NCBI GenBank assembly: GCA_003194525.1
Contig: NBIV01000140.1
Coordinates: forward strand, 124,001 to 188,000
Direction of reading: 5' to 3'
From: Gracilariopsis chorda
Lineage: Eukaryota > Rhodophyta > Florideophyceae > Gracilariales > Gracilariaceae
DNA length: 64,000 nt
Shown here: piece by piece, positions 1,256-52,176 of the stretch
Layout: the number at the start of each line of letters is the position of its first letter
How positions within the stretch are numbered: position 1 is the stretch's first letter
Translations under genes and position numbers: made by a program
The notes under the pieces: generated by a model
What the model saw: the letters and a program-made list of their open reading frames with translations, nothing else
What the model was told of the DNA's origin: nothing
The model's database searches: none

Positions 1256-1483
1256 CCGAACACTTATCCCTCTTCTACAACTTTAGTGTAGATCGATTTT
1301 GGAGGCGTAAGGGTCGCAGGAAGATATTCAAAGTGGGCGTGGCCTAGTCGTGTCGTTCACTTTTGGCTTAGTACCTAGTCACGCTAGAGGCGTTTTCGGT
1401 GTGGTCTGGTATTCGCTTGCGCCTAAAGGTCGCTAAACGAGAGAGCACGGAGCTTGACGGGAAGGCCTGTTATATAATGCTGA

Positions 1484-1623
1484 AACGCCGCTCGGGGCGG
1501 CGGTTTTAGGGGGGAATGTGTCGTGTGCTTGTGGTGCACAAGAATTGGTTGGATATGTTTTTGAATTGCACATTTTTTAATGGGCGCTGCCCAGCTTCCA
1601 GCATGGAAGCTGAGCATAGCGCC
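1484..1623. other. Conserved hairpin-forming segment in the unit lead
   Basis: Two stem-loops lie close together. At about 1484-1507, CGCCGC pairs with GCGGCG and is followed by TTTT. At 1583-1623 a long stem forms: GGCGCT with AGCGCC outside, and CAGCTTCCA with TGGAAGCTG (9 bp, 3-nt loop) inside. A third, smaller stem, TCTACA/TGTAGA, lies at 1274-1292. All six units carry them. In unit 6 the first stem is one base shorter but still a palindrome. The function is unknown; possibilities are a structured UTR or non-coding RNA, or simply cruciform-prone DNA. Confidence 0.6.
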
Positions 1624-1827
1624 TGCATAAATGCACACCTCTCGCACTTGTGGCTTCACCGCTTTGGGGAGAGGTAGGAAGGAACTTGCACACCCGAAAT
1701 GCTCAGTGGCTCGTTCGTCCGCATTGCATCCACCTTTCGCTGAAAAACGCGCACCCCCGACATCCTCTTTTCTTGCGCAACACAAATGTTGAAAAAAACG
1801 CATTCCTTGGTTTCCACAAATGCCCCC

Positions 1828-2352
1828 AAAACCAATTGCTTTCGCCCTCTCGCACAATATGCGTTAACATGCCCGCATTGCGTTGTTTTAGCAAATGTAG
1901 CAAAACCAAAGCGCTTTCGCAGTTTTGTACAATGTGCAAAAAAAATCTGCGCTTTGCTTGCTCTCACCTAAACGGCCCAAAACGAAGTGCTTTCGCATAT
2001 TGCTACAATTTGTGAAAACATACACGGATTGCTAGGTTGTGGTAAATGTGCCCAAAACCAAGCGCTTTGCATCATTTGCACAATATGCGTAAACATACGC
2101 AAAATATTTGCTTTGTGCAAATGTGTCCTAAACAAAGCGCCGTTTTACATTTGTACAATGTCCCAAATATTCACAGGTTGCTTGGTGTCTGCCAAGCTGC
2201 CCAAAACCAAGCGCTTTCCCAAATTCTGCGAATGAAACAAAAAACATTCCCCGCGCTTGGTCTACGAAACGATGACTAAAACCAAGCGCATGGAGCATGC
2301 CACCAAACCTTGCAAAGCCAGCTCAGAAAGCATCATTCCAAAGCCTACAACA
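1828..2352. repeat. Degenerate ~75-bp minisatellite, core AAAACCAAGCGCTTT
   Basis: The core motif AAAACCAAGCGC or a close variant begins at 1828, 1902, 1979, 2054, about 2129, 2203 and 2278, so the period is 74-77 bp. A typical copy also contains ACAATATGCGTAAACAT about 25 bp after the core. A further core lies at 2415, roughly two periods on. The copies are well diverged from one another within a unit, yet each copy is almost identical between units. The minisatellite is therefore older than the amplification of the array. Equivalent stretches lie about 9.82 kb further on in every unit, including the partial unit 6. Confidence 0.85.
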
Positions 2353-2595
2353 CGCACATATGCGCGTGCCGGTATTTTCAAGACCTCCCTACAAGGTTCT
2401 GACTAATCATGGCTAAAACCAAGCGCTGGGGCGCCCTGTATTGGTGGGCTAAATCTTCAAAAATGGGCTCAATTACGCTACTTACACGACATGCACGCGG
2501 CACGTGCCATATGTGCCTCAAATCAAGGGCAAACGGCGATGTTAAAACCTAATTTTTTGAAGTACGCGCTTGGTTTTCGTCGGACCCAAGCATTC

Positions 2596-2603
2596 TATAA
2601 ATA
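2596..2603 (+). promoter_or_regulatory. TATA-box-like site upstream of the PLE
   Basis: TATAAATA stands between the minisatellite and the first PLE direct repeat. It could be part of a pol II promoter reading rightwards, but no start site can be shown. The same site is kept in units 2-6. Confidence 0.3.
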
Positions 2604-2780
2604 CTAGCCAGGTTTTTTGAGGTCAAGCGTTTGTTTCATGACCGGCACACAACGCTTCGTCATCCACTGAAGGCATCAAAAAGGTAGATACACCGATTTC
2701 ACCACTCATTCAACGTTTTGCGTCAGAACCAAGCCCTTGCTGACACCCCTGACAACCAAGCGCAAACCCAACCTTACGGC

Positions 2781-2901
2781 CAACACTACTATAAGGAAAC
2801 ATGGAAGCCGCTATACCAGTATGCTACAGTAAATTATATCTGGCTGGCAATCAGAGATCAATGGCCCTACGCAAAGATCCATTCCGAAGGCAAAACGGTA
2901 G
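2781..2901 (+). repeat. Left direct repeat (pseudo-LTR-like) of the PLE
   Basis: This stretch resembles 5670-5791 over about 120 bp. Both contain ACCAGTATGCTAC, ATCTGGCTGGC, AGATCAAT and AACGGTAGC in the same order. Read in frame, both give the same short peptide pattern (QYAT..YIWLA, then DQ.P and IHS.G.TV), so the left copy is the 3' coding tail of an upstream PLE copy. Partial tandem copies of this kind are the 'pseudo-LTRs' known for Penelope-like elements. The left copy continues in an open frame to 3004. Confidence 0.65.
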
Positions 2902-3072
2902 CCAAGACGATAATCTCAAGCAAAGACCACAGAACAGGGATAGGACTAGAAGAAGAATCCAGCAATGACATCCAACACAGCCCCCGAGACGCGCAGGTCC
3001 TCTGAGTCCTCCGAGTGCTTGAAGGCCTAGCTGTCACAGCTGTACTACGTAGAGCAGTGCGTAGAATAGGTC

Positions 3073-3080
3073 TATATAAG
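3073..3080 (+). promoter_or_regulatory. TATA-box-like site inside the PLE 5' region
   Basis: TATATAAG lies about 270 bp upstream of the likely PLE start codon at 3350. It is followed by a long C/T-rich stretch (3095-3255), as often seen at initiation regions. It is a plausible promoter within the PLE pseudo-LTR, inferred from position and consensus only. Confidence 0.35.
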
Positions 3081-5669
3081 GAACTTTCACCCAGCAAATC
3101 CCTTCTCCACTCATCTCTCCTCACCACCAACCGGGGCACTGAAGAGTCCTAAAAACGAAGGCGCTTTGCGTATTTCGATTTTGTAAGCCTCAAGCCGTCT
3201 CTCGTACCCCTTCTATCCTCTCTTTCTCATCCCCCTTTTCTGTCCCTTTCCCACCTCTCACCGCGAGTGACCCGGCATATCCCCACCATACATTTCAACC
3301 AAAAAAATACCTTAAGAGGGACAGTTGCCGTCGTCGATCTCTTCTCAACATGGCTCCAGGAACCCGGTCTTCTTCAAATGCCACTTCAAATGATGGGCTA
3401 TACAGTTGAGTCGAGGAGCACCTCCACACCGTCACTGCAACCCTTGGCAAAGAGATTGAAGACGTCGAGAAGAAGATCGCCTCACGCCGCGTCGTTTTGC
3501 ATCAACATATTGAACATCGACGAAATGGAACGCTGCCGAAAGGAATTGTGGCGCCACGAATGCCGCAGTTCCCAGCGACCATGGCAAATGAATTCCGTGG
3601 GACGTTTGACACCCTTGCTGAGCAGTTCAACAAAAGCGTCGTGGACGTATCCATCGAACTATGGAACTAGGAACTAACTTAGTTACAGGCCGAGAAAGAA
3701 CAGATCATCAAAGACACTCGAGAAAAAAGTCCATGAGGCGCTTATCTATGCCGCAGGACTCCTTGATGATGTACAACCCTTTGGGATCACTAGTCTGGTC
3801 CAATGCTACATGACTAGCTTTCTAGCTCAACTGAAAGAGCAGAAAAGCAGCGGACCTCCTGAAGAATGCTGCTGCCGAGGCCGATGAACTGGAGGCTCCT
3901 CAGGGACTTGATTGGCTGGACAAAGATGTTCAGTCAATGAAGAAGAAGATAGCCGTTCTTCGCTCTGGTACGGCATAGGCTACCTGTAAAGGGAATAAAA
4001 AACCCCCAGCGGAGGGCAAGAAAACCCCTAAACCGGGAGATGGGAAAGCAAAAGCCGTACAGGCAAAGAAGAACAAGTCGAAAAAAGGCAAGGCGCACCA
4101 GAAAGGGGCGCCAAAGCAAATTAAACCGTTCAAGACCACGGAAACCCGGTTCTTCCATCATCAATGAAGTGAAGTTCAACACCCCTATTGTTATACGCAT
4201 CGAAGAGATATCGTACTGTGTACGAAGAGTTCTCTTCGCTGGTAGTGGGTTCGCTATAAGGAATTCACTCCAAGAATGCCTCGAGGAAGCAATATCAAAG
4301 CTCCCAGGAAAACTGGAAAGAACGGGAAAAGTGCTTCCTATACCTACCTCATTAATGGGCATGAGGGACCTGAGAAAGGTTGCAGAGTTGGTGAGGTCAG
4401 CAAGGAAGCCCAGAACCCTTTCTAACATTTTAAAGAAAGGGTTCACACACATCTGGAATAAGGAATGGATTGGCAAGGAAGCAGAACAGAATCTTGGTCT
4501 TGTGCTTATGCACAGAAAGGTATACTCCAGACTCATCGAGTCGGAGTTAAGCAAGGGTGTACTTTCTGAAGTGAAATCATTCCACTTTGAGCAGAATTTC
4601 AGTAACCTTGCAAGGTTTCCCAGAAGCGGAACGCTACCTCCATTGGACTGGAAAAGCATCCTTGATGAGGCCAAGGAATGCAATAGCCCCAATTCACTGT
4701 ACATCCTTCCGCAGATTCACAAGGCTACACTTGGAAGCAAGCTAATAACAGCTCCATGCTCGTTTGTATGCAGCAGTTTATCAAGAAGGCTTAGCTCCAT
4801 CCTGAATGTTGTACAGAAAATCAAGGTGATAAATGTCAACAGCAAACAGGTCGTACGCCAACTGGAATAACTATACGTGCCAAGGTACTGCGTCTTTGTC
4901 ACATAAGATGTGGAGCAATGTTACCCCAACATCGACATCAAGGATGCGCGTAAAACCTTGGTGGAGTACTTGCCGGATATCTTTCAAACCCAGAACATCT
5001 TCCGGGCTCGTCCCCAGACTAATTATGAAGAACAACTTCATAACGGTTAGCGGAAAGATACTGAAGCAAGAAACAGATACAGCAACTGGTACAGCAGTGG
5101 CACTAGCCTTCACAAACATATATCTGTACTTAAACTTCTCGCGAATCTTCAAAACATTTGCCAACAGGATCATCTTCCAAAGACGTAACGTTGATGATGG
5201 ATTAATGATCCTAAGGTACATGGATTCTGCCCTAACGATTATGGAATTCCTTAATGCTTGCACAAACCTCTCTCTAACGTATGAGATGAGCACTGAAAGG
5301 GCAGTTTTCTTGGACCTCGAGATATACAAAGGAGAACGATTCCGAAAGGAAAATAAGTTGGATCTCATGGTGTACACAAAACCCATATCCAAGTTCCTTT
5401 ATCTCCATGGCACATCTGATCATCCGGAACACGTCTTTACGGGTATTGTGAAAGGAGAAATGATCAGATTTCTCCGGAACACGGACTCTTAGGACATATG
5501 CGAAAAGAAAGTAGCCTTTCTTTTCGGAACATTAGCCCAAAGCGGATACTCTGGAAGGTACCTCAGAGACGCAATCCGATATGTAAGCAGCAAGGATAAA
5601 AATTCATATCTCCATGGAATTATGGATAAGGAAGAGTTCAATCGAGGCTCCTTTGTCACTTGCCAGTAC

Positions 5670-5791
5670 CACCCCGAAGCCAAGAAACCATGAAAGCGGC
5701 AATACCAGTATGCTACGTTAAAGTACATCTGGCTGGCCACCTGAGATCAATTGCCCCACAAAAATATCCACTCCAAAGGCCAAACGGTAGC
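5670..5791 (+). repeat. Right direct repeat (pseudo-LTR-like) of the PLE, cut by the LINE
   Basis: This is the partner of 2781-2901. It ends abruptly at AACGGTAGC, where the poly-G and 3' end of the LINE begin. The left copy runs on past this point, so the right copy was truncated or interrupted there. The missing part is not found on the other side of the LINE. Confidence 0.65.
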
Positions 5792-5800
5792 GGGGGGGGG

Positions 5801-5841
5801 TTCAGCTCAGCCCGTAAGGGCTGAGCCACTATTTATTGTGG
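5801..5841 (-). other. LINE 3'-end double hairpin with AATAAA
   Basis: On the element strand the 3' UTR ends with CCAC-(AATAAATA)-GTGG, then a 9-bp perfect stem (GCTCAGCCC / GGGCTGAGC, 4-nt loop), then a short spacer and 7-10 C residues. AATAAA lies in the loop of the first stem. Many LINE reverse transcriptases recognise a 3' stem-loop of their own RNA, so this pair is a candidate. Equivalents begin near 15625, 25446, 35270 and 45088. Confidence 0.65.
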
Positions 5842-6275
5842 TCATTTTCCCAATGATTGAGCAACAGACTACACACTAACCTATATGCTTGCCAAATGAG
5901 GGGGGGAATGAGTAGGGAGGCTGTTCCTTGCTTGCCCCGGCGGGGATCCATTAGATTCCCGTACCTGTAGCAGGGCAGGTACAAAGTGTCAGTCAGAAGC
6001 CGCATGGTTGCGGGTGAGTTTCAAGTCTTCTCAAACGAGGCGTTTTCCAATCCACGAGCCGGGTGGTGCAGAGAGCGTTGAGGGAGAGAAGGTGTGGGAG
6101 TCGTCCAAAGTCTTGCGGTAGAGGTGAAATCAGAGTAAGCGTACCGGCTCTATGCTTCATCTGTTGCCCTCGTTCCGCCCGGTTCCAACTCCGGGTCATC
6201 CAAATCAACGATCTTCAGCCTTGACGTGGCGGTTTGGCTGTTATAGCTTAGTTGGACATCGTTGTAGCTATTTCT

Positions 6276-9185
6276 CTAATGGAGGTCACGAAGCGAAGCA
6301 CACTTTTCCAGCACTTCATCAGCTTCCTTTTCCAGGGAGGGGGACCAAGAGTTTCGATCTAATAGGCGTCGCATATCGGGAACCAAGGCCCGAAGAGCAT
6401 CTGTTCGAACAGGGAGCTTCGATAGATACCAAAGGACTCCTTGATGTACAGCCTTGCGAGAAAGGGTGCAGGACTTTAATAAACGAGCGAGGGTAGTCCA
6501 GGAGATAGGCGTAACACGCGCGCGACCCATATTAGCGAGATCAAACTCTTCCATATATATCTTACGCTTCACGACCGTTTTGAAATCCGTCAACCCATCA
6601 ATATCATCCGGGAGCTTCATCCGTTCCAGTTCCATTCGCACAGCTGGTATGTCCCTTGCCAGCTGCAAAGCGCGAGACGCACGCGCCCACAGTTCCGCTT
6701 TGTGTGGAGATTCATTGCGAGTTTCATGAGAAACAAGACGAAGAAGGCGGAAGCGAGCAGCGAGAGCAGCGATATGCACGCGACGGCGAGTTTGCAGGGA
6801 GGGCAACTTCGTCAATGCGCACGAGCGATCCAGATGAGAGGGGGCGACAGACACCCCAAGGATCCAGGCGTGAGCTTCCATTTCCAGTTTTTTCGGTAGA
6901 CTGGAGACCTCTGCAGTGAGCGGCTGTACAGGGAGGCAATACTCGAACAGCGAGAGTATCTTTGTCCTGACGATATTAACCTTGCTCAGCACGGAGAGCG
7001 GGGAATCAGACGTGATGCAGCGAATCCGGCGCAGCCCGACTCTAGCCGAGTCGATTCTCTCCAAAAACCTCTGGGGAGTAGGCCCGCGGTGTGAGAAAGA
7101 AAACCACAGATAGCAAGCTTCTTCCACCACCTGTATAGGTTCCTGGCCCAGTAAGAAAGGTTCATGACCATTTCCGCATACGACGTAGGACTTGGAGGCA
7201 TTCCATCGCATACCCATGATATTTGCCCAAGAGCTGCAAGCGTTGAGTTGCTTCATAAGAGTAGCATTGTCTTCAGCCAGTAAAGCGACATCATCCGCGA
7301 AGCAACTAGACACACTCCTGGGGATCCGACACAGATATTCCAAGAATGTGTCCATAAAGATATTAAAGAGATTCGGGCTGAGTGGATCGCCTTGGGGAAC
7401 TCCAATGACCATAGTTGCCAAGACATTCGAGACTTGCTGCTTTGTCTTGATCCGAATTGGCGTTAAGAGAGCCGGGAGCATACGAGAAGTGTCAACTGGG
7501 AGACGGGCGGTACATAGATCCAGTAGTTTCCCGCGAGGCACCGGGTCATAGGCACTCTTCAAATCCAGAAACGCAGCGTTGGAGAAGCCTTCGCGCGCGC
7601 ACTTAGCAGCGTAAGCAACTCCCAGCTCTGTGTTAGAGCCCTGGATGAAGCCCCATTGGTTGCGGTGGAAGAAGTACACTTCCGAGATGCAGTAGTGGAG
7701 AGCCTTCGTTATCACCTTTCGCAACACCGATAGCAGTGTGATTGGGCGGTAAATGGCAGGAAGGGTTGGGTCACCTTTCTTGTAGATGGGAGCCACAAAG
7801 CCAGAACGAAGGATGCGCGGGGTATAAGCGAGTCTGCCTACAGCCGTCCATAGTTCCAAGAGAGCGGTCGAAAAGAGTCCAGGCTCCAGTTTCAGAGCTT
7901 CCAAGTGGACAAAATCCGGTCCAGGAGACTTCTTCTTCTTTCCGCAGGTAATAGCCATTTCCAAATGCTTCTTTAAATATGGCGGTACTTCGAAATTCCC
8001 GACCGATACGATCGGTTCTTCATCAGGCTGGTGGGCCTGCAGGTGAGCTGTGAAGTCGTCAGGAGCGAGCTTCACGGGTTCGAGGTTAGATCCCTCGGAG
8101 CGTACAAGCCTGTTAAGCTTTGGGATAAGATCCTCAGGGGGACCTTCTTCAAGTTCATCCCGTTGTTGGTCGGCTATCCGGCGACGGTTTCTCCGGAACT
8201 TTCGCTTGATTTTGCGATCAAGAGCCTTGACCTTGGCACGCAGGTTGACTGACTGCGGTACCATTTTGAGTAGTCGAGACCTTTCCTTCGCCATTAAGTC
8301 CAGTTCCCGGTTCCAGCCAGGCCTGTGACGAGCTGGTCTGGGAGAGATATTTCCTAACCAAGGCCGTAAGATGTCCTTAGCGAGCTCCAAAGTAGCAGAT
8401 TCCAGAGCATCGGGTGATTCCACTGCTTGTAGCTGCGTGATGGCTGTCGAGAGATGCTTTTTGTAGGAACGCTTGGCTTCATCCTGGAGCTTGGGGTTGC
8501 TTAGGAGAGCCTGGGAGATATGATCCTTCAACGTATTTGGTGTCGTTAGTGGGAAAGAGACGAGCACTGGAGCATGATCCGATGGCCAAGAGCCTCCCAA
8601 TACGCGTGGGACCGAGGCCCAGAGCCCTCGATACAAGAATATGTCCACCACGCTAGAGCCACGATGGGTGATGTAGGTGGGAGACTTCGGAGCGGCGATC
8701 ATAAAACGGGACTGCATCATCCATTTCCAAAGCCGATTACCCTGAGGAGTCGTGATCTTGTCCCATCTGCTGTTACGGGCATTCAGGTCACCAACAATAA
8801 TTGCAGATCCCCTACTCAGCCGCGTAACATCGAAGAGGAAAGATTGCATCTCTTCGGCGGAACACTGAGGCTTGACATACACACACAAGAAATTGACGGA
8901 GAGAAACGTACCAGCCAAGATCTGGTATGCACGAGTAGAGACTTCTTCTCGCTTCTTGAAGGCGCCATATTTCTTATAGAAAACAGCGACGCCTCCACCA
9001 AGTCGGGAGCGGTTGGGCGAAGAGTAGGCGTCCGCCGAATCATAGAACAGCGCTTCATCCTCGACAATCCTCCCTGCTGACCAAGTCTCCGTAAGACAGA
9101 CAAGGTCAGACATGTTGAGCAGTGTTTTGACACTGCCCAGTTTGGGTGTGGTGCACCCATTAATGTTGAAAGTGGTGATCAGCAT
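6276..9185 (-). CDS. LINE ORF2: APE endonuclease and reverse transcriptase (unit 1)
   Basis: A 969-aa uninterrupted frame starting with ATG. Residues 1-210 form an exonuclease/endonuclease/phosphatase domain: N7/N9 (TTFNING), E33 (LTETW), GDLNA at 132-136, D181 (VVDIFL) and S-D-H at 202-204. The RT spans about 420-690: Y-R-P-I-T-L-L, D541 in FLDLKSAYD, the G-V-P-Q-G-D-P-L-S-P box near 600, and F-A-D-D at 629-632. These supply the target-nicking and copying activities of target-primed reverse transcription. The start overlaps the ORF1 stop (ATGCTGA), which suggests coupled translation. All expected catalytic residues are present. The stop is TAG, and the same frame stays open for 41 more codons. 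The C-terminal third has no domain I recognise. Confidence 0.93.
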   Translation of the reverse strand: MLITTFNINGCTTPKLGSVKTLLNMSDLVCLTETWSAGRIVEDEALFYDSADAYSSPNRSRLGGGVAVFYKKYGAFKKREEVSTRAYQILAGTFLSVNFLCVYVKPQCSAEEMQSFLFDVTRLSRGSAIIVGDLNARNSRWDKITTPQGNRLWKWMMQSRFMIAAPKSPTYITHRGSSVVDIFLYRGLWASVPRVLGGSWPSDHAPVLVSFPLTTPNTLKDHISQALLSNPKLQDEAKRSYKKHLSTAITQLQAVESPDALESATLELAKDILRPWLGNISPRPARHRPGWNRELDLMAKERSRLLKMVPQSVNLRAKVKALDRKIKRKFRRNRRRIADQQRDELEEGPPEDLIPKLNRLVRSEGSNLEPVKLAPDDFTAHLQAHQPDEEPIVSVGNFEVPPYLKKHLEMAITCGKKKKSPGPDFVHLEALKLEPGLFSTALLELWTAVGRLAYTPRILRSGFVAPIYKKGDPTLPAIYRPITLLSVLRKVITKALHYCISEVYFFHRNQWGFIQGSNTELGVAYAAKCAREGFSNAAFLDLKSAYDPVPRGKLLDLCTARLPVDTSRMLPALLTPIRIKTKQQVSNVLATMVIGVPQGDPLSPNLFNIFMDTFLEYLCRIPRSVSSCFADDVALLAEDNATLMKQLNACSSWANIMGMRWNASKSYVVCGNGHEPFLLGQEPIQVVEEACYLWFSFSHRGPTPQRFLERIDSARVGLRRIRCITSDSPLSVLSKVNIVRTKILSLFEYCLPVQPLTAEVSSLPKKLEMEAHAWILGVSVAPSHLDRSCALTKLPSLQTRRRVHIAALAARFRLLRLVSHETRNESPHKAELWARASRALQLARDIPAVRMELERMKLPDDIDGLTDFKTVVKRKIYMEEFDLANMGRARVTPISWTTLARLLKSCTLSRKAVHQGVLWYLSKLPVRTDALRALVPDMRRLLDRNSWSPSLEKEADEVLEKCASLRDLH

Positions 9186-10606
9186 TCAGCGGAGGCCTCT
9201 TGGCGCGCTGGCAAGAGTTCCTTAGGCGGGTGTTCCTGGTCTTCTTCAACGCAGTGCGGTGGTTCCTGCATCCGAGAAGTGTCATCGGCCTCACTGCGTG
9301 TTGAAGGTTCCGGCGAATCGAACTCGAGCGAGGGATGGGAGTCCTTTAGACCTTGAGCCTGCTTGGAGTACCACTCCTTCGCGGTGGGAGATCTTGAGCG
9401 GAGCGCACACCAATTCCAGCGACGATAACATGATTTGGCATAAGTTCTCACATTTGCTGGGCTTGATTTCGACCCAGTTGGATCAAAAGTCTCCAGGTGA
9501 CGGCGGCGAAGAATGGCCATGGTCGAGGTGAGCCTGTGAACCAGGGGGCGGTGGCATAGAACCTCCAAGATATTGTTTCCAATAAACGAAAGACCCACAC
9601 CCGCCCATTTCGGAAGGGATAAAAGAAGCGCCTTCCTTAGAGCACCCAGAGGTCCCCTGGGTACATTGCCAAAATAAACCGCGACCAGGCTTGGTCGGGC
9701 ATTTTGCTGGGGCCGAGAGAACCCCGCAGCGGCTAGAACTTTCCTGGTGTCGGCGATCTTCGTCTTCGTCTGCTCGGGAAGCTTTTCCAGGGCAGGCTTA
9801 GCGGCGATTTCCGCCCAAGAGGGCTTAGAGGAATTGACGGTTTTGATTTTTCGACCTTCATCGGCCGAGACTGACGCCATTCCCTTTGAAGCGACGGCAA
9901 GTGAAAGATACTCCTTGGGAGCAGGAGCAGCCGGCAGAGGTCTCGATTGCTTCACTCGGGCGGGCGCAGGTTCTGCTTCCGTCTTCTGTGATGCGATTTG
10001 GGCTTTGAGGGCCCTGATTTCTTCCTGTAGATCGTTGATAGTTTCAATAAAATGTCCACATTGAGCCATTAGTACATTGTTTTCCAGTTCCAATTCTTCA
10101 TAAGTCTCCTTCTTCTTAAGCTTCACGGCTGAGTCCAAAACATAGGACGTCGATGAGGCCACGGATTCCAAGGGTTTGGGAGAATCGGCGTCCAAGGTAG
10201 ACGGTAAAGCGGAGAAAATAGAGGCCTTTGGTCTCTGCGGGGTGTTGGGGATCCGCCTTTGAAATCCTTGTGGTTTCCGTGGTGCGGTCGGGGCATCGGA
10301 GGCCTGAGGCTCTCGAGGAGGAGCGACTGTGGGAGCAGGGGCCTCCGCCGGCACTGATGTTGCAGCCAGAAGTGCATCAAGTCTGCCTCCGGTAATCTTC
10401 CTTTGACTAATGCGGCACTTCGCTATGAGACGGCCATGAGCAGACCCGTTAAGGGCAAGGAGCTTGGGCTTCTTGCAATAAGCAAAAGAAAGAAAGGTCT
10501 TCTTCCTCGTGAACTCTTCGGTAAACGCCCATTTGCGGCTTTCGGGTGTTAGGGTCCCGGAATCCTCAGAATCTTTGAAAACGGTGTGTCCACCTTTGGT
10601 AGCCGT
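9179..10606 (-). CDS. LINE ORF1: coiled-coil RNA-binding-type protein (unit 1)
   Basis: Open frame of about 475 codons ending in TGA inside the ORF2 start. Unit 5 has ATG (…ATGGCTACG…) at the start equivalent to 10606; here that codon is ACG and no ATG lies nearby, so translation would need a non-AUG start or has been lost. Visible parts: a basic N-terminus with K-C-R-I-S (unit 5 has K-C-R-I-C, a possible zinc-binding CxxC); a proline/alanine-rich stretch; a coiled coil (about residues 170-212, LELENN…INDLQEEIRALKAQ); and a conserved block near 310-365 (VYFGNVPRGPLG…LSFIGNN) that may be RNA-binding. LINE ORF1 proteins package element RNA and often trimerise through a coiled coil. That role is inferred. 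Confidence 0.8.
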   Translation of the reverse strand, partial: TATKGGHTVFKDSEDSGTLTPESRKWAFTEEFTRKKTFLSFAYCKKPKLLALNGSAHGRLIAKCRISQRKITGGRLDALLAATSVPAEAPAPTVAPPREPQASDAPTAPRKPQGFQRRIPNTPQRPKASIFSALPSTLDADSPKPLESVASSTSYVLDSAVKLKKKETYEELELENNVLMAQCGHFIETINDLQEEIRALKAQIASQKTEAEPAPARVKQSRPLPAAPAPKEYLSLAVASKGMASVSADEGRKIKTVNSSKPSWAEIAAKPALEKLPEQTKTKIADTRKVLAAAGFSRPQQNARPSLVAVYFGNVPRGPLGALRKALLLSLPKWAGVGLSFIGNNILEVLCHRPLVHRLTSTMAILRRRHLETFDPTGSKSSPANVRTYAKSCYRRWNWCALRSRSPTAKEWYSKQAQGLKDSHPSLEFDSPEPSTRSEADDTSRMQEPPHCVEEDQEHPPKELLPARQEASAEC

Positions 10607-11078
10607 ATTTAACAAAATGAGGGGCAGCCACGAAGTTCACAAAGTAGGTCCTTAGCCTGTGGTTGGCTGGGAGCGGTACACGTGGCTGTCAGCTCGCTGG
10701 AACCCGCCGGCGGCGCCGACGAAGACGACGGAGCGGTGGGTTGCGCGGGGAAGACGACGACGGAACTCGCGAAGAACGAAACGTAGAAGCGATCCAGCCC
10801 GAGATAACGCCTATCAAGCGCGGTAGAACGGTAAAGCGGAGCAAGGCGCACAAGACGATGTGCCTTGGGATAGACGCGCACGTACGCGCGGGGTAGAAAG
10901 ACGCCTCCGAAAGCAGCAGGATGCGCAGAGTGCGCACGCGAGAAAACGGAAGTTGACGTAGCTCGGGAACGAGACGCGCAATGCGCGCGGAGGCAACGTG
11001 AGCGGACGCGCAGCAAGTCCTTTGTTCGATGCAGACGACACCGCCTAGGACAGATTTAGGAGGGGAGTTTGGCTCTAC
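10607..11078 (-). other. LINE 5' leader, GC-rich
   Basis: About 470 bp of GC-rich sequence upstream of ORF1 on the - strand, joined directly to the lead of the next unit. A 135-codon frame (11016-10609) runs through it but begins with TTG. It is arginine/serine-rich as expected of translated GC-rich DNA and is not called as a gene. A promoter internal to this leader is likely by analogy with other LINEs but cannot be shown. Confidence 0.5.
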
Positions 11079-15600: not shown

Positions 15601-15614
15601 GGCCAAACGGTAGC
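12605..15614 (+). mobile_element. Penelope-like element, decayed, unit 2
   Basis: Same element and same pattern of decay as in unit 1, between direct repeats at 12605-12725 and about 15493-15614. It is not independently inserted: its flanks match those of the other units. Confidence 0.75.
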
Positions 15615-25400: not shown

Positions 25401-25436
25401 CCACAAAAATATCCACTCCAAAGGCCAAACGGTAGC
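22428..25436 (+). mobile_element. Penelope-like element, decayed, unit 3
   Basis: Same element, boundaries and state of decay as in units 1 and 2. Confidence 0.75.
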
Positions 25437-35200: not shown

Positions 35201-35259
35201 TGGCCACCTGAGATCAATTGCCCCACAAAAAATATCCACTCCAAAGGCCAAACGGTAGC
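32249..35259 (+). mobile_element. Penelope-like element, decayed, unit 4
   Basis: Same element, boundaries and state of decay as in units 1-3. Confidence 0.75.
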
Positions 35260-42071: not shown

Positions 42072-45000
42072 CAACACTACTATAAGGAAACATGGAAGCC
42101 GCTATACCAGTATGCTACAGTAAATTATATCTGGCTGGCAATCAGAGATCAATGGCCCTACGCAAAGATCCATTCCGAAGGCAAAACGGTAGCCAAGACG
42201 ATAATCTCAAGCAAAGACCACAGAACAGGGATAGGACTAGAAGAAGAATCCAGCAATGACATCCAACACAGCCCCCGAGACGCGCAGGTCCTCTGAGTCC
42301 TCCGAGTGCTTGAAGGCCTAGCTGTCACAGCTGTACTACGTAGAGCAGTGCGTAGAATAGGTCTATATAAGGAACTTTCACCCAGCAAATCCCTTCTCCA
42401 CTCATCTCTCCTCACCACCAACCGGGGCACTGAAGAGTCCTAAAAACGAAGGCGCTTTGCGTATTTCGATTTTGTAAGCCTCAAGCCGTCTCTCGTACCC
42501 CTTCTATCCTCTCTTTCTCATCCCCCTTTTCTGTCCCTTTCCCACCTCTCACCGCGAGTGACCCGGCATATCCCCACCATACATTTCAACAAAAAAATAC
42601 CTTAAGAGGGACAGTTGCCGTCGTCGATCTCTTCTCAACATGGCTCCAGGAACCCGGTCTTCTTCAAATGCCACTTCAAATGATGGGCTATACAGTTGAG
42701 TCGAGGAGCACCTCCACACCGCCACTGCAACCCTTGGCAAAGAGATTGAAGACGTCGAGAAGAAGATCGCCTCACGCCGCGTCGTTTTGCATCAACATAT
42801 TGAACATCGACGAAATGGAACGCTGCCGAAAGGAATTGTGGCGCCACGAATGCCGCAGTTCCCAGCGACCATGGCAAATGAATTCCGTGGGACGTTTGAC
42901 ACCCTTGCTGAGCAGTTCAACAAAAGCGTCGTGGACGTATCCATCGAACTATGGAACTAGGAACTAACTTAGTTACAGGCCGAGAAAGAACAGATCATCA
43001 AAGACACTCGAGAAAAAGTCCATGAGGCGCTTATCTATGCCGCAGGACTCCTTGATGATGTACAACCCTTTGGGATCCCTAGTCTGGTCCAATGCTACAT
43101 GACTAGCTTTCTAGCTCAACTGAAAGAGCAGAAAAGCAGCGGACCTCCTGAAGAATGCTGCTGCCGAGGCCGATGAACTGGAGGCTCCTCAGGGACTTGA
43201 TTGGCTGGACAAAGATGTTCAGTCAATGAAGAAGAAGATAGCCGTTCTTCGCTCTGGTACGGCATAGGCTACCTGTAAAGGGAATAAAAAACCCCCAGCG
43301 GAGGGCAAAAAAAACCCTAAACCGGGAGATGGGAAAGCAAAAGCCGTACAGGCAAAGAAGAACAAGTCGAAAAAAGGCAAGGCGCTCCAGAAAGGGGCGC
43401 CAAAGCAAATTAAACCGTTCAAGACCACGGAAACCCGGTTCTTCCATCATCAATGAAGTGAAGTTCAACACCCCTATTGTTATACGCATCGAAGACATAT
43501 CGTACTGTGTACGAAGAGTTCTCTTCGCTGGTAGTGGGTTCGCTATAAGGAATTCACTCCAAGAATGCCTCGAGGAAGCAATATCAAAGCTCCCAGGAAA
43601 ACTGGAAAGAACGGGAAAAGTGCTTCCTATACCTACCTCATTAATGGGCATGAGGGACCTGAGAAAGGTTGCAGAGTTGGTGAGGTCAGCAAGGAAGCTC
43701 AGAACCCTTTCTAACATTTTAAAGAAAGGGTTCACACACATCTGGAATAAGGAATGGATTGGCAAGGAAGCAGAACAGAATCTTGGTCTTGTGCTTATGC
43801 ACAGAAAGGTATACTCCAGACTCATCGAGTCGGAGTTAAGCAAGGGTGTACTTTCTGAAGTGAAATCATTCCACTTTGAGCAGAATTTCAGTAACCTTGC
43901 AAGGTTTCCCAGAAGCGGAACGCTACCTCCAATGGACTGGAAAAGCATCCTTGATGAGGCCAAGGAATGCAATAGCCCCAATTCACTGTACATCCTTCCG
44001 CAGATTCACAAGGCTACACTTGGAAGCAAGCTAATAACAGCTCCATGCTCGTTTGTATGCAGCAGTTTATCAAGAAGGCTTAGCTCCATCCTGAATGTTG
44101 TACAGAAAATCAAGGTGATAAATGTCAACAGCAAACAGGTCGTACGCCAACTGGAATAACTATACGTGCCAAGGTACTGCGTCTTTGTCACATAAGATGT
44201 GGAGCAATGTTACCCCAACATCGACATCAAGGATGCGCGTAAAACCTTGGTGGAGTACTTGCCGGATATCTTTCAAACCCAGAACATCTTCCGGGCTCGT
44301 CCCCAGACTAATTATGAAGAACAACTTCATAACGGTTAACGGAAAGATACTGAAGCAAGAAACAGGTACAGCAACTGGTACAGCGGTGGCACTAGCCTTC
44401 ACAAACATATATCTGTACTTAAACTTCTCGCGAATCTTCAAAACATTTGCCAACAGGATCATCTTCCAAAGACGTAACGTTGATGATGGATTAATGATCC
44501 TAAGGTACATGGATTCTGCCCTAACGATTATGGAATTCCTTAATGCTTGCACAAACCTCTCTCTAACGTATGAGATGAGCACTGAAAGGGCAGTTTTCTT
44601 GGACCTCGAGATAAACAAAGGAGAACGATTCCGAAAGGAAAATAAGTTGGATCTCATGGTGTACACAAAACCCATATCCAAGTTCCTTTATCTCCATGGC
44701 ACATATGATCATCCGGAACACGTCTTTACGGGTATTGTGAAAGGAGAAATGATCAGATTTCTCCGGAACACGGACTCTTAGGACATATGCGAAAAGAAAG
44801 TAGCCTTTCTTTTCGGAACATTAGCCCAAAGCGGATACTCTGGAAGGTACCTCAGGGACGCAATCCGATATGTAAGCAGCAAGGATAAAAATTCATATCT
44901 CCATGGAAATATGGATAAGGAAGAGTTCAATCCAGGCTCCTTTGTCACTTGCCAGTACCACCCCGAAGCCAAGAAAACATGAAAGTGGCAATACCAGTAT

Positions 45001-45080
45001 GCTACGTTAAAGTACATCTGGCTGGCCACCTGAGATCAATTGCCCGACAAAAAGATCCACTCCAAAAGCCAAACGGTAGC
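42072..45080 (+). mobile_element. Penelope-like element, decayed, unit 5
   Basis: Same element and breaks as in the other units, with more private substitutions than units 1-4, as in the rest of this unit. Confidence 0.75.
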
Positions 45081-45561
45081 GGGGGGGTCAGCTCAGCCCG
45101 TAAGGGCTGAGCCACTATTTATTGTGGTCACTTTCCCAATGATTGAGCAACAGACTACACACTAACCTATATGCTTGCCAAATGAGGGGGGGAATGAGTA
45201 GGGAGGCTGTTCCTTGCTTGCCCCGGCGGGGATACATTAGATTCCCGTACCTGTAGCAGGGCAGGTACAAAGTGTCAGTCAGGAGCCACATGGTTGCGGG
45301 TGAGTTTCAAGTCTTCTCAAACGAGGCGTTTTCCAATCCACGAGCCGGATGGTGCGGAGAGCGTTGAGGGAGAGAAGGTGAGGGAGTCGTCCAAAGTCTT
45401 GCGGTAGAGGTGAAATCAGAGTAAGCGTACCGGCTCTATGCTTCAACTGTTGCCCTTGTTCCGCCCGGTTCCAACTCCGGGTCATCCAAATCAACGATCT
45501 TCAGCTTTGACGTGGCGCTTTGGCTGTTATAGCTTAGTTGGACATCGTTGTAGCTATTTCT

Positions 45562-48471
45562 CTAATGGAGGTCACGAAGCGAAGCACACTTTTCCAGCAC
45601 TTCATCAGCTTCCTTTTCCAGGGAGGGGGACCAAGAGTTTCGACCTAATAGGCGTCGCATATCGGGAACCAAGGCCCGAAGAGCATCTGTTCGAACAGGG
45701 AGCTTCGATAGATACCAAAGGACTCCTTGATGTACAGCCTTGCGAGACAGGGTGCCTTACTTGAGTAAAGAAGCGAAGGTAGTCCAGGAGATAGGCGTAA
45801 CACGCGCGCGACCCATATTAGCGAGATCAAACTCTTCCATATACATCTTACGTTTCACGACCGTTTTGAAATCCGTCAACCCATCAATATCATCCGGGAG
45901 CTTCATCCGTTCCAGTTCCATTCGCACAGCTGGTATGTCCCTTGCCAGCTGCCAAGCGCGAGACGCACGCGCCCACAGTTCCGCTTTGTGTGGAGATTCA
46001 TTGCAAGTTTCATGAGAAACAAGACAACGAAGAGGGAAACGAGCAGCGAGAGCAGCGATATGCACGCGACGGCGAGTTTGCAGGGAGGGCAACTTCGTCA
46101 ATGCGCGCGAGCGATCCAGATGAGAGGGGGCGACAGACACCCCAAGGATCCAGGCGTGAGCTTCCATTTCCAGTTTTTGCGATAGACTGGAGACCTCTGC
46201 AGTGAGCGGCTGTACAGGGAGGCAATACTCGAACAGCGAGAGTATCTTTGTCCTGACGATATTAACCTTGCTCAGCACGGAGAGCGGGGAATCAGACGTG
46301 ATGCGGCGAATCTGGCGTAGCCCGACTCTAGCCGAGTCGATTCTCTCCAAAAACCTCTGGGGAGTAGGCCTGCGGTGTGAGAAAGAAAACCCCAGATAGC
46401 AAGCTTTTTCCACCACCTGTATAGGTTCCTGGCCCAGTAAGAAGGGTTCATGACCATTTCCGCATACGACGTAGGACTTGGAGGCATTCCATCGTATACC
46501 CATGATATTTGCCAAAGAGCTGCAAGCGTTGAGTTGCTTCATAAGAGTAGCATTGTCTTCAGCCAGTAAAGCGACATCATCCGCGAAGCAACTAGACACA
46601 CTCCTGGGGATCCGACACAGATATTCCAAGAATGTGTCCATAAAGATATTAAAGAGATTCGGGCTGAGTAGATCGCCTTGGGGAACTCCAATGACCATAG
46701 TTGCCAAGACATTCGAGACTTGCTGCTTTGTCTTGATCCGAATTGGCGTTAAGAGAGCCGGGAGCATACGAGAAGTGTCAACTGGGAGACGGGCGGTACA
46801 TAGATCCAGTAGTTTCCCGCGAGGCACCGAGTCATAGGCACTCTTCAAATCCAGAAACGCAGCGTTGGAGAAGCCTTCGCGCGCGCACTTAGCGGCGTAA
46901 GCAACTCCCAGCTCTGTGTTAGAGCCCTGGATGAAGCCCCATTGGTTGCGGTGGAAGAGGTACACTTCCGAGATGCAGTAGTGGAGAGCCTTCGTTATCA
47001 CCTTTCGCAACACCGATAGCAGTGTGATTGGGCGGTAAATGGCAGGAAGGGTTGGGTCACCTTTCTTGTAGATGGGAGCCACAAAGCCAGAACGAAGGAT
47101 GCGCGGGGTATAAGCGAGTCTGCCTACAGCCGTCCATAGTTCCAAGAGAGCGGTCGAAAAGAGTCCAGGCTCCAGTTTCAGAGCTTCCAAGGGGACAAAA
47201 TCCGGTCCAGGAGACTTCTTCTTCTTTCCGCAGGTAATAGCCATTTCCAAATGCTTCTTTAAATATGGCGGTACTTCGAAATTCCCGACCGATACGATCG
47301 GTTCTTCATCAGGCTGGTGGGCCTGCAGGTGAGCTGTGAAGTTGTCAGGAGCGAGCTTCACGGGTTCGAGGTTAGATCCCTCGGAGCGTACAAGCCTGTT
47401 AAGCTTTGGGATAAGATCCTCAGGGGGACCTTCTTCAAGTTCATCCCGTTGTTGGTCGGCTATCCGGCGACGGTTTCTCCGGAACTTTCGCTTGATTTTG
47501 CGATCAAGAGCCTTGACCTTGGCACGCAGGTTGACTGACTGCGGTACCATCTTGAGTAGTCGAGACCTTTCCTTCGCCATTAAGTCCAGTTCCCGGTTCC
47601 AGCCAGGCCTGTGACGAGCTGGTCTGGGAGAGATATTTCCTAACCAAGGCCGTAAGATGTCCTTAGCGAGCTCCAAAGTAGCAGATTCCAGAGCATCGGG
47701 TGATTCCACTGCTTGTAGCTGCGTGATGGCTGTCGAGAGATGCTTTTTGTAGGAACGCTTGGCTTCATCCTGGAGCTTGGGGTTGCTTAGGAGAGCCTGG
47801 GAGATACGATCCTTCAACGTATTTGGTGTCGTTAGTGGGAAAGAGACGAGCACTGGAGCATGATCCGATGGCCAAGAGCCTTCCAATACGCGTGGGACCG
47901 AGGCCGAGAGCCCTCGATACAAGAATATGTCCACCACGCTAGAGCCACGATGGGTGATGTAGGTGGGAGACTTCGGAGCGGCGATCATAAAACGGGACTG
48001 CATCATCCATTTCCAAAGCCGATTACCCTGAGGAGTCGTGATCTTGTCCCATCTGCTGTTACGGGCATTCAGGTCACCAACAATAATTGCAGATCCCCTA
48101 CTCAGCCGCGTAACATCGAAGAGGAAAGATTGCATCTCTTCGGCGGAACACTGAGGCTTGACATACACACACAAGAAATTGACGGAGAGAAACGTACCAG
48201 CCAAGATCTGGTATGCACGAGTAGAGACTTCTTCTCGCTTCTTGAAGGCGCCATATTCCTTATAGAAAACAGCGACGCCTCCACCAAGTCGGGAGCGGTT
48301 GGGCGAAGAGTAGGCGTCCGCCGAATCATAGAACAGCGCTTCATCCTCCACAATCCTCCCTGCTGACCAAGTCTCCGTAAGACAGACAAGGTCAGACATG
48401 TTGAGCAGTGTTTTGACACTGCCCAGTTTGGGTGTGGTGCACCCATTAATGTTGAAAGTGGTGATCAGCAT
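45562..48471 (-). pseudogene. LINE ORF2 with a late nonsense codon (unit 5)
   Basis: 904 codons are open from the ATG at 48471. TAA at 45757-45759 replaces the S of LLKSCTL, and the frame then continues to the usual TAG at 45562. Endonuclease and RT motifs are all before the stop. The box near residue 600 reads GVPQGDLLSP instead of GVPQGDPLSP. Confidence 0.88.
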
Positions 48472-49862
48472 TCAGCGGAGGCCTCTTGGCGCGCTGGCAA
48501 GAGTTCCTTAGGCGGGTGTTCCTGGTCTTCTTCAACGCAGTGCGGTGGTTCCTGCATCCGAGAAGTGTCATTGGCCTCACTGCGTGTTGAAGGTTCCGGC
48601 GAATCGAACTCGAGCGAGGGATGGGAGTCCTTTAGACCTTGAGCCTGCTTGGAGTACCACTCCTTCGCGGTGGGAGATCTTGAGCGGAGCGCACACCAAT
48701 TCCAGCGACGATAACATGATTTGGCGTGAGTTTCCACATTTGCTGGGCTTGATTTCGACCCAGTTGGATCAAAAGTCTCCAGGTGACGGCGGCGAAGAAT
48801 GGCCATGGTCGAGGTGAGCCTGTGAACCAGGGGGCGGTGGCATAGAACCTCCAAGATATTGTTTCCAATAAACGAAAGACCCACAACCGCCCATTTCGGA
48901 AGGGATAAAAGAAGCGCCTTCCTTAGAGCACCCAGAGGTCCCCTGGGTACATTGCCAAAATAAACCGCGACCAGGCTTGGTCGGGCATTTTGCTGGGGCC
49001 GAGAGAACCCAGCAGCGGCTAGAACTTTCCTGGTGTCGGCGATCTTCGTCTTCGTCTGCTCGGGAAGCTTTTCCAGGGCAGGCTTAGCGGCGATTTCCGC
49101 CCAAGAGGGCTTAGAGGAATTGACGGTTTTGATTTTTCGACCTTCATCGGCCGAGGCTGACGCCATTCACTTTGAAGCGACAGCAGGTGAAAGAGACTCC
49201 TTGGGAGCAGGAGCAGCCGGCAGAGGTCTCGATTGCTTCACTCGGGCGGGGGCAGGTTCTGCTTCCGTCTTCTGTGATGCGATTTGGGCTTTGAGGGCCC
49301 TGATTTCTTCCTGTAGATCGTTGATAGTTTCCATAAAATGTCCACATTGAGCCGTTAGTCCATTGTTTTCCAGTTCCAATTCTTCATAAGTCTTCTTCTT
49401 CTTAAGCTTCACGGCTGAGTCCAAAACATAGGACGTCGATGAGGCCACGGATTCCAAGGGTTTGGGAGAATCGGCGTCCAAGATAGACGGTAAAGCGGGG
49501 AAAATAGAGGCCTTTGGTCCCTGCGGGGTGTTAGGGATCCGCCTTTGAAATCCTTGTGGTTTCCGAGGTGCGGTCGGGGCATCGGAGGCCTGAGGCTCTC
49601 GAGGAGGAGCGACTGTGGGAGCAGGGGCCTCCGCCGGCACTGATGTTGCGGCCAGAAGTGCATCAAGTCTGCCTCCGGTAACCTTCCTTTGACAAATGCG
49701 GCACTTCACTATGAGACGGCCATGAGCAGACCCGTGAAGGGCAAGAAGGTTGGGCTTCTTCCTCGTAAACTCTTCGGTAAACCTCCGTGTGCGGCTTTCG
49801 GGTGTTAGGGTCCCGGAATCCTCAGAATCGTTGAAAACGGTGTGTCCACCCTTCGTAGCCAT
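48465..49862 (-). pseudogene. LINE ORF1 with ATG start, one internal stop (unit 5)
   Basis: Starts MATKGGHTVF at 49862. The N-terminal part differs clearly from the other units: it has K-C-R-I-C-Q-R-K with two cysteines and lacks the 10-residue TFLSFAYCKK insertion. A TGA follows A-S-K near 49167; the frame then resumes to the normal end at 48465, still overlapping ORF2 by 7 nt. Confidence 0.85.
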
Positions 49863-50333
49863 ATTTGGCAAAACGAGGGGCAGCCACGAAGTTCACAAAG
49901 TAGATCCTTAGCCTGTGGTTGGCTGGGAGCGGTACACGTGGCTGTCAGGTCGCTGGACCCCGCGGCGGCGGCGAGGAAGACGACGGAGCGGTGGGTTGCG
50001 CGGGGAAGACGACAACGGAACTCGCAAAGAACGAAACGTAGAAGCGATCCAGCCCGAGATAACGCCTATCAAGCGCGGTAGAACGGTAAAGCGGAGCAAG
50101 GCGCACAAGACGATGTGCCTTGGGATAGACGTGCACGTACGCGCGGGGTAGAAAGACGCCTCCAGAAGCAGCAGGAGGCGTAGAGTGCGCACGCGAGAAA
50201 ACGGAAGTTGACGTAGCTCGGGAACGAGACGCGCAATGCGCGCGGAGGCAACGCGAGCGGACGCGCAGCAAGTCCTTTGTTCGATGCAGACGACACCGCC
50301 TAGGACAGATTTAGGAGGGGAGTTTGGCTCTAC

Positions 50334-51799
50334 CCGAACACTTACCCCTCTTCTACAACTTTAGTGTAGATCGATTTTGGAGGCGTAAGGGTCGCAGGAA
50401 GATATTCAAAGTGGGCGTGGCCTAGTCGTGTCGTTCACTTTTGGCTTAGTACCTAGTCACGCTAGAAGCGTTTTCGGTGTGGTCTGGTATTCGCTTGCGC
50501 CTAAAGGTCGCTAAACGAGAGAGCACGGAGCTTGACGGGAAGGCCTGCTATATAATGCTGAAACGCCGCCCGGGCGGCGGTTTTAGGGGGGAATGTGTCG
50601 TGTGCTTGTGGTGCACAAGAATTGGTTGGATATGTTTTTGAATTGCACATTTTTTAATGGGCGCTGCCCAGCTTCCAGCATGGAAGCTGAGCATAGCGCC
50701 TGCATAAATGCACACCTCTTGCACTTGTGGCTTCACCGCTTTGGGGAGACGTAGGAAGGAACTTGCACACCCGAAATGCTCGGTGGCTCGTTCGTCCCCA
50801 TTGCATCCATCTTTCGCTGAAAAACGCGCACCTCCGACATCTTCTTTTCTTGCGCAACACAAATGTTGAAAAAAAAACGCATTCCTTGGTTTCCACAATT
50901 GCCCCCAAAACCAATTGCTTTCGCCCTCTCGCACAATATGCGTTAACATGCCCGCATTGCGTTGTTTTAGCAAATGTAGCAAAACCAAAGCGCTTTCGCA
51001 GTTTTGTACAATGTGCAAAAAAAAACTGCGCTTTGCTTGCTCTCACCTAAATGGCCCAAAACGAAGTGCTTTCGCATATTGCTACAATTTGTGAAAACAT
51101 ACACGGATTGCTAGGTTGTGGTAAATGTGCCCAAAACCAAGCGCTTTGCATCATTTGCACAATATGCGTAAACATACGCAAAATATTTGCATTGTGCAAA
51201 TGTGTCCTAAACCAAGCGCCTTTGTACATTTGTACAATGTGCCAAATATTCACAGGTTGCTTGGTTTCTGCCAAGCTGCCCAAAACCAAGCGCTTTCCCA
51301 AATTCTGCGAATGAAACAAAAAACATTCCCTGCGCTTGGTCTACGAAACGATGGCTAAAACCAAGCGCATGGAGCATGCGACCAAAACTTGCAAAGCCAG
51401 CTCAGAAAGCATCATTCCAAATCCTACAACACGCACATATGCGCGCGCGGGTATTCTCAGGACCTCCCTACAAGGTTCTGACTAATCATGGCTAAAACCA
51501 AGCGCTGGGGCGCCCTGTATTGGTGGGCTAAATCTTCAAAAATGGGCTCAATAACGCTACTTACACGACATGCACGCGGCACGTGCCATATGTGCCTCAA
51601 ATCAAGGGCAAACGGCGATGTCAAAACCTAAATTTTTGAAGTACGCGCTTGGTTTTCATCGAACCCAAGCATTCTATAAATACTAGCCAGGTTTTTTGAG
51701 CTCAAGCGTTTGTTTCATGACCGGCGCACAACGCTTCGCCATCCACTGAAGGCATCAAAAACGTAGATACACCGATTTCACCACTCATTCAACGTTTTG
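50334..51799. repeat. Array unit 6, partial (right edge of array)
   Basis: Contains only the hairpin lead, the minisatellite and the TATAAATA region, and stops at CAACGTTTTG, just before the PLE. It shares AAAAACGTAGATA with unit 5 (units 1-4 have AAAAAGG…) and has many private changes. The break at 51799 is abrupt: the next base belongs to unrelated G/T-rich DNA. Confidence 0.9.
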
Positions 51800-52113: not shown

Positions 52114-52176
52114 ACCCACGGCAACCGGCCGCTGCCACCTGGCACGAGCCACCCACCCAGGCTTGTCCCGTGGCGT

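Follow-up and report, generated by a model that had tools for sequence, protein, structure and literature searches.

The window analyzed here, a 64-kb stretch of Gracilariopsis chorda DNA, contains a large tandem array at positions 1256-51799, made up of five units of 9,788-9,824 bp (1256-50333) and a partial sixth of 1,466 bp (50334-51799; Table 1). This agrees with the earlier note on this DNA, which had described a 9.82-kb unit repeated five and a bit times. Comparison of the window with itself returned long direct repeats, spaced about 9.82 kb apart and of 98.7-99.5% identity, and repeat pieces ending in the partial unit 6 with 96.7-97.1% identity. The same comparison gave no inverted repeats at an E-value of 1e-10. 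Outside the array, the window holds 1.25 kb before the left edge and 12 kb of other DNA with open reading frames (ORFs) past the right edge.

Each unit consists of three parts: a 1.5-kb segment, here named segment A, a relic resembling a Penelope-like element (PLE), and an oppositely oriented LINE. The pairing of a PLE with an opposite LINE that had been proposed before thus holds as a composite tandem unit, to which segment A has to be added. No differences occur among the five internal junctions in the 79 bases preceding the border or in the 11 following it (the latter being the anchor by which the junctions were located), confirming what had been reported of them. The left edge of the array departs from the internal-junction sequence before 1252-1256, and a degenerate GGTTTT-rich stretch lies directly beyond the right edge.

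Table 1. Features of the array, with coordinates in the window
Feature	Position	Strand	Remarks
Unit 1	1256..11078	none	9,823 bp
Unit 2	11079..20902	none	9,824 bp
Unit 3	20903..30723	none	9,821 bp
Unit 4	30724..40545	none	9,822 bp
Unit 5	40546..50333	none	9,788 bp; mosaic, most divergent full unit
Partial unit 6	50334..51799	none	only first 1,466 bp of unit
Left array edge	1252..1256	none	flush with unit junction
Right array edge	51799..51800	none	inside segment A
Segment A of unit 1	1256..2792	none	~1.5 kb, assigned to neither PLE nor LINE
PLE relic of unit 1	2793..5791	+	candidate PLE-type RT motifs over two frames; 14 stops in two frames checked
Left 110-bp direct repeat (pLTR-like)	2793..2902	+	81.8% identical to 5682-5791
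Right 110-bp direct repeat (pLTR-like)	5682..5791	+	pairs with 2793-2902
LINE of unit 1	5792..11078	-	putative 3' end at 5792; 5' end = unit junction
LINE ORF2	6276..9185	-	969 codons in unit 1; Exo_endo_phos, Exo_endo_phos_2, RVT_1
LINE ORF1 frame	9179..10636	-	open for 485 codons in unit 1
LINE 5' untranslated region	10637..11078	-	up to unit junction

A search against Rfam with E-values of up to 1 gave a single match, whose 27.5 bits fall far short of the gathering score of 90, and a tRNA search found none, so that there is no sign of an rDNA-like unit. No hammerhead ribozyme was reported. No convincing target-site duplications were found at the ends of the array, the LINE, or the PLE (longest shared words of 6, 4, and 5 bp, respectively, with the 6-bp word lying away from the edges).

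The three parts of the unit

Segment A contains a degenerate repeat of about 75 bp, with copies at 1828, 1903, 1979, 2054, 2203, and 2278. Degenerate short repeats of this type are frequent in satellite DNA. No further copy of the segment was found in the flanks within the 64-kb window.

The second part is presumably derived from a PLE, given its candidate reverse transcriptase (RT) motifs and the pLTR-like direct repeats on both sides of its ORF. All seven of the PLE/TERT-type RT motifs looked for occur in order within about 0.7 kb, as matched by patterns written after the sequence had been seen; at most 2 of these patterns were found in 300 Markov sequences. Pieces of the relic showed no RT or PLE match in Pfam or the PDB, only weak matches to other families, and a PLE piece had no relatives in viral contigs. 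A single-sequence structure model of a PLE piece was unusable (mean pLDDT of 30.5). The GIY-YIG endonuclease, which is absent in the EN-deficient subclass of PLEs, was not found in a search that covered the 66 codons after the RT and part of the broken region before it; those 66 codons matched GATase (0.016) and ERG2_Sigma1R (0.034) alone, neither of which reached the cut-off. All 14 of the stop codons checked are stops in each of the five units, and, as read from these frames, the relic is dead in all of them.

In Pfam, ORF2 of the LINE matched Exo_endo_phos (3.8e-12), Exo_endo_phos_2 (2.4e-13), and RVT_1 (9e-24), and it gave 12 matches in the PDB, R2 and L1 ORF2 chains among them. With a predicted AP-like endonuclease and RT in ORF2, the LINE is of the APE type. 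For ORF1, the domain search returned only a weak bZIP_1 match, below the cut-off. A C tract on the LINE's own strand (5792-5800) and a hairpin with a 9-bp stem (5805-5826) would appear to be the LINE's own 3' end. The tract counts 9-10 bases in four of the five units, the pattern being unmatched in unit 5. The fold of the 3' region was not more stable than those of shuffled sequences (z 0.45), with just the small hairpin standing out, and the stretches outside the putative LINE ends share no words longer than 4 bp. No relatives of ORF2 were confirmed in viral or GTDB contigs; this result, like that for the PLE piece in viral contigs, says little, since these collections, by their descriptions, comprise viruses and prokaryotes.

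The LINE genes are disrupted to different degrees. Only units 1 and 2 have an ORF2 that is open throughout (969 codons); a stop interrupts it at codon 825 in units 3 and 4, and at codon 905 in unit 5. The expected initiator of ORF1 (10604-10606 in unit 1) reads ACG in units 1-4 and ATG only in unit 5, where, however, a 30-bp gap and a stop follow later in the frame. A stop at codon 252 of ORF1 is common to units 4 and 5. None of the five units combines a complete, ATG-started ORF1 with a complete ORF2.

Exchange and selection among the units

An alignment of units 1-5 has 206 variable columns, those with gaps counted, and the units are therefore not one unit copied five times by the assembler. 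The units are mosaics of one another and were probably homogenized by exchange. In a four-gamete test, 213 of the 465 pairs formed by 31 informative sites were incompatible, which, assuming at most one mutation per site, requires at least 7 recombination events; recurrent mutation could lie behind part of this signal. Neighboring sites shared the same partition in 19 of 30 cases, compared with 10.1 in shuffles (P = 5e-5). Differences between units 5 and 3 range from 0 to 25 per 500 bp (chi2 126.7, df 19, P = 6e-18), and those between units 4 and 3 are heterogeneous as well (P = 2e-13, though with small expected counts). Toward the LINE 5' end of unit 4, 17 informative variants are common to units 4 and 5 only.

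Divergence is greatest in the units at the right edge. Unit 5 differs from the other full units by 1.24-1.45% and has 107 private substitutions, compared with 10, 7, 4, and 2 in units 1, 2, 3, and 4. Over the segment shared with the others, unit 6 diverges by 2.6% from units 1-4 (38 of 1,464-1,465 sites) and by 2.3% from unit 5 (33 of 1,465 sites), with 29 private substitutions in segment A. The edge effect is strong only at the right; on the left, the divergence of unit 1 hardly exceeds that of units 2-4.

Selection appears to be absent from the LINE genes, as the comparison of unit 5 with units 1-3 fits the neutral expectation. Synonymous changes numbered 11-13 in ORF2, where simulation predicted 12.7-13.7, and 12 in ORF1, where it predicted 12.1-12.3. 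NG86 dN/dS between unit 5 and units 1-4 was 0.84-1.00 for ORF2; for ORF1, it was 0.85-0.88 against units 1-3 and 0.54 against unit 4. Within units 1-4, the ORF2 ratios scattered from 0.32 to 2.9, drawn from 3 to 14 changes, counts too small to read. As some of these ratios are below 1, and that of ORF1 between units 4 and 5 is 0.54, weak selection may have acted on the LINE ORFs at some stage. Selection keeping the LINE intact was also considered, and is unsupported by the neutral simulations of unit 5 versus units 1-3. An uninterrupted ORF2 had previously been attributed to the unit and called unusual. The attribution is right for units 1 and 2 and wrong for units 3-5, and the emphasis is lost with an ORF intact in two of five copies, neutral change in unit 5 versus units 1-3, and an ORF1 that lacks either its ATG or its completeness in every unit.

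Origin of the array

The array is a transposon-derived composite tandem repeat, a known kind of sequence: its copies lie head-to-tail with a constant junction, and more than one transposon contributed to the monomer (the LINE recognized by Pfam, the PLE solely by its candidate motifs and the direct repeats on either side). We estimate a probability of about 0.75 that it is a macrosatellite-like repeat formed from transposon remains, amplified and homogenized at the DNA level by unequal crossing-over and gene conversion. The mosaic units, the identical junctions and the left edge flush with them, the right-edge divergence, the shared lesions, and the neutral LINE changes between unit 5 and units 1-3 all argue for such amplification, bearing out the earlier preference for recombination over independent retrotransposition. 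Copies that were already broken were multiplied, as seen from the PLE stops present in all units, the ACG of units 1-4, the ORF2 stop of units 3 and 4, and the ORF1 stop of units 4 and 5.

Such an array would have started from an old PLE relic adjoining the satellite-like segment A, beside which a LINE inserted in the opposite direction. The block of A, PLE, and LINE would then have been duplicated in place, after which unequal crossing-over and gene conversion among the homologous units of about 10 kb may have produced the multiplied, homogenized array. Here, we infer the event behind the first duplication, the order of the insertions, and exchange rather than replication-based copying. A counterpoint to duplication in place is that the array both starts and ends with segment A. 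As it ends inside A, such a duplication requires a second break, where a 5'-truncated retrotransposed copy would give this end directly.

Alternatively, segment A may already have lain on both sides of the PLE and LINE, and exchange between the two copies would have built the array. This would account for an array bounded by A at either end, and the copies offer about 1.5 kb of homology with a degenerate, satellite-like 75-bp repeat. The two copies, however, would need an identical starting base, the first next to the left flank and the second next to the 5' end of the LINE, implying a discrete A element or a coincidence, and no A was found in the flanks within the window. We regard this as an unlikely, though tenable, beginning; as it departs from the preferred reading in the first step only, the two overlap, and the probabilities behind our wording do not sum to 1.

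Less likely still, the whole 9.8-kb unit could be a single minus-strand LINE, whose long 3' region holds the PLE relic and segment A, and which inserted head-to-tail at existing copies, with recombination merely polishing the array later. Seen from the minus strand, the edge that the copies share at 1256 would be its 3' end, and unit 6, as the final copy, would be 5'-truncated in the manner of LINE insertions. Clustered LINE copies in tandem arrays are likewise described for Zepp and ZeppL of green algae, where they arise by nested insertion into existing copies; those arrays, however, consist mostly of element 3' ends (PMC8226300). Here, none of the five internal junctions is truncated or differs from the rest, unit 6 alone is truncated, and a PLE relic is included. 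Against this reading also stand the array edges, which show no convincing target-site duplication and no A-rich tail at 1256, the C tract and hairpin that resemble a 3' end within the unit, and the multiplication of broken copies. A related and more doubtful idea is that the unit itself is mobile, as a LINE with a captured antisense PLE relic and satellite segment as its giant 3' region, inserting full-length and head-to-tail into its own copies and seeding arrays that then recombine like satellites.

Rolling-circle amplification, or amplification from an extrachromosomal circle, followed by insertion of the concatemer, had been offered as an equal alternative to unequal crossing-over, and would also yield identical junctions and homogeneous units. 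A random start phase would be expected, however, yet no more than 4 bp separate the left edge from the position of the unit junction (about 9 of 9,823 phases by plain arithmetic). The divergence of units 5 and 6 is, moreover, several times that among units 1-4, unlike the pattern of a concatemer formed in one burst. We consider this route very improbable.

A telomere-maintaining retrotransposon array like HeT-A/TART or GilM/GilT is suggested by the head-to-tail LINEs and the GGTTTT-rich stretch past the right edge. The head-to-tail order of LINEs recalls these telomeric elements, and a PLE whose partial search gave no endonuclease domain invites comparison with EN-deficient PLEs (PMC10088271, PMC3846280). 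With a non-terminal position in this window (other DNA lies beyond both edges), invariant junctions, a PLE dead in all five units, and no unit with both ORFs complete, this reading can practically be set aside. The same holds for an assembly artefact repeating one unit, given the 206 variable columns, the unit-specific stops, the 30-bp deletion in unit 5, and the diverged partial unit 6.

The preferred reading, a repeat amplified by exchange, has counterparts among composite satellites, whose monomers come from parts of several transposons and are multiplied in tandem by mechanisms that include unequal exchange; the composite monomers reviewed contain multiple short transposon-like stretches, whereas the present monomer spans 9.8 kb and contains a nearly whole LINE (PMC12628747). 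Unequal crossing-over has also been proposed to let copy number fluctuate in tandem arrays of the retroelement Cassandra, which are LTRs separated by internal domains (PMC7215508); no LTR is involved here.

Taken as a whole, the locus has the look of a tandem repeat that is ordinary in all but its large size and was assembled from broken mobile elements. It captures transposon wreckage at an early stage of becoming satellite, with units long and distinct enough for exchange tracts, right-edge divergence, and lost selection on the LINE to be read from one locus. It also carries a warning, in that an intact-looking ORF within a tandem repeat need not signify an active element.

Structure of the tandem array

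Self-comparison of the window yielded long direct repeats of 98.7–99.5% identity with a period of approximately 9.82 kb, along with repeat pieces of 96.7–97.1% identity that extend into a partial last unit; no inverted repeats were found at an E-value of 1e-10. Unit starts were located with the anchor CCGAACACTTA, which marked six of them, and the tandem array of ~9.82-kb units proposed in an earlier note was thereby confirmed. The unit-to-unit junctions are also alike, as that note had claimed: all 5 internal junctions are identical over the 79 bases before the border and the 11 after it, the latter being the anchor itself. The left flank diverges from the unit sequence within 4 bp of the unit-junction point, and the right end of the array falls inside segment A, the first part of the unit.

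Units of the array and features of unit 1
Feature	Position	Strand	Length	Content
Unit 1	start 1256		9,823 bp	
Unit 2	start 11079		9,824 bp	
Unit 3	start 20903		9,821 bp	
Unit 4	start 30724		9,822 bp	
Unit 5	start 40546		9,788 bp	
Partial unit 6	start 50334		1,466 bp	
Segment A	1256-2792		1.5 kb	degenerate ~75-bp repeat; assigned to neither PLE nor LINE
PLE relic	between 2793-2902 and 5682-5791	+		110-bp direct repeats, putative RT motifs
LINE ORF2	6276-9185	-		Exo_endo_phos, Exo_endo_phos_2, RVT_1
LINE ORF1	9179-10636	-		weak bZIP_1, under cut-off

Starting at the right edge, a degenerate GGTTTT-rich stretch (51800-52130; 22 sites, none with more than one mismatch) may be a worn telomere-like or subtelomeric repeat. 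Three similar palindromes, GGGG(G)AA..TTCCCCC, lie near the right-flank ORFs (52674, 58529, and 59006) and may be the ends of another mobile element. Two long reading frames (53256-56006 and 59139-62753) each contain one in-frame TAG, which may reflect recent decay, an intron, or stop readthrough. Within the former, 54243-56003 gave a weak Ndc10_N match under the cut-off (0.026) and, beyond it, a KLRASYATSM box that by eye resembles a tyrosine recombinase; 55116-56003 had no sequence match in the PDB. Within the latter, an 890-codon frame (60081-62753) carries a Ulp1-type (Peptidase_C48) protease domain barely over the cut-off (E 0.00016). By eye, 52370-52440 is tRNA-like or SINE-like, and ARAGORN detected no tRNA in the window. 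On the left, 79-357 resembles by eye the C-terminus of an integrase from an LTR element, with a single weak and unrelated Pfam match (DUF4537, 0.2).

Composition and decay of the unit

The label Penelope-like element (PLE) rests on the 110-bp direct repeats, which are 81.8% identical, and on seven putative PLE-type motifs that occur in order within ~0.7 kb across two frames. None of 300 random Markov sequences contained more than two of the seven; because the patterns were composed after viewing the sequence, this result is weaker than it may seem. The PLE reverse transcriptase (RT) is divided over two frames, with stops, and searches of Pfam and the PDB with PLE pieces returned weak matches to unrelated families and none to an RT.

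ORF2 of the LINE has Pfam matches far over the cut-offs and also matches R2 and L1 ORF2 chains in the PDB by sequence. The bZIP_1 match of ORF1 is its sole one in Pfam, where its C-terminal part had no match. The two frames overlap by 7 bases (ATGCTGA), with the ORF2 start shortly before the ORF1 stop. A C tract and hairpin at 5792-5826 look like the true 3' end of the LINE; the tract measures 9, 10, 9, and 10 bases in units 1–4, and unit 5 had no match to the pattern.

ORF2, earlier described as uninterrupted, is so in units 1 and 2 (2/5); units 3 and 4 have a common stop at codon 825, and a stop interrupts unit 5 at codon 905. ORF1 is open in units 1–3, while unit 4 contains one stop and two single-base gaps; the stop recurs in unit 5 together with a 30-bp gap that keeps the frame. 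The expected ORF1 initiator codon is ACG in units 1–4 and ATG in unit 5 only, the latter probably being the older state. The next in-frame ATG in units 1–3 is residue 180, and a non-AUG start is possible. Owing to the ACG codon, stops, and gaps, none of the five units combines a complete ORF2 with a complete, ATG-started ORF1.

Probable exchange between units and proposed origin of the array

Mosaic units, multiplied broken copies, and drifting LINE ORFs together point to DNA-level amplification with exchange. Among 31 informative sites in units 1–5, 213 of 465 site pairs failed the four-gamete test, implying at least 7 recombination events, provided that no site mutated twice. Adjacent informative sites had the same partition in 19 of 30 cases, versus 10.1 in shuffles (P = 5e-5). 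Between units 5 and 3, near-identical stretches alternate with others in which differences reach 25 per 500 bp (chi2 126.7, df 19), and the 17 informative sites that separate units 4 and 5 from units 1–3 all fall in alignment columns 7344-9658. Inactivating lesions recur across units: the ACG codon in four, ORF2 stop 825 and ORF1 stop 252 in two each, and, of the PLE stops in unit 1, all 14 that were checked recur as stops in every one of the five.

The LINE ORFs drift between unit 5 and units 1–3: 11–13 of 43–46 changes in ORF2 were synonymous (neutral expectation 12.7–13.7), as were 12 of 41–42 in ORF1 (12.1–12.3). Less clear are ORF1 between units 4 and 5 (dN/dS 0.54) and ORF2 among units 1–4 (0.32 to 2.9, few changes). 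Private substitutions number 107 in unit 5, 10 in unit 1, 7 in unit 2, 4 in unit 3, and 2 in unit 4, with 29 in partial unit 6, in segment A. Unit 5 and partial unit 6 diverge most, as expected of an array edge, an effect that is only slight in unit 1, at the left edge.

The best explanation is that the block of segment A, PLE, and LINE was duplicated in place, followed by unequal crossing-over and gene conversion between units. Such a duplication would produce the flush left edge with no extra assumption; the array end within segment A would require a second break. Possibly, the first step was recombination between copies of segment A already present, a reading that overlaps with the best explanation, so that the likelihoods of the rival readings do not sum to 1. 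Both edges would be accounted for by a LINE that, with its 3' end at 1256, inserted into its own copies; PMC8226300 describes Zepp elements as building arrays in this way. Against this reading stand the full-length, identical internal junctions, position 1256 itself, where neither an A-rich tail nor a convincing target-site duplication was seen, and the apparent true 3' end at the C tract and hairpin. A rolling-circle concatemer should not fit, as neither a start at the unit junction nor such unequal divergence between units would be expected of it.

No relatives were confirmed in viral and prokaryote contigs, as would be expected since the DNA looks eukaryotic. In its treatment of satellites, the review PMC12628747 describes their origin from nearly any part of any transposon, including composite monomers, and lists unequal exchange as one mechanism forming them. 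By that description, the array is a large, well-preserved example of a transposon-derived satellite.
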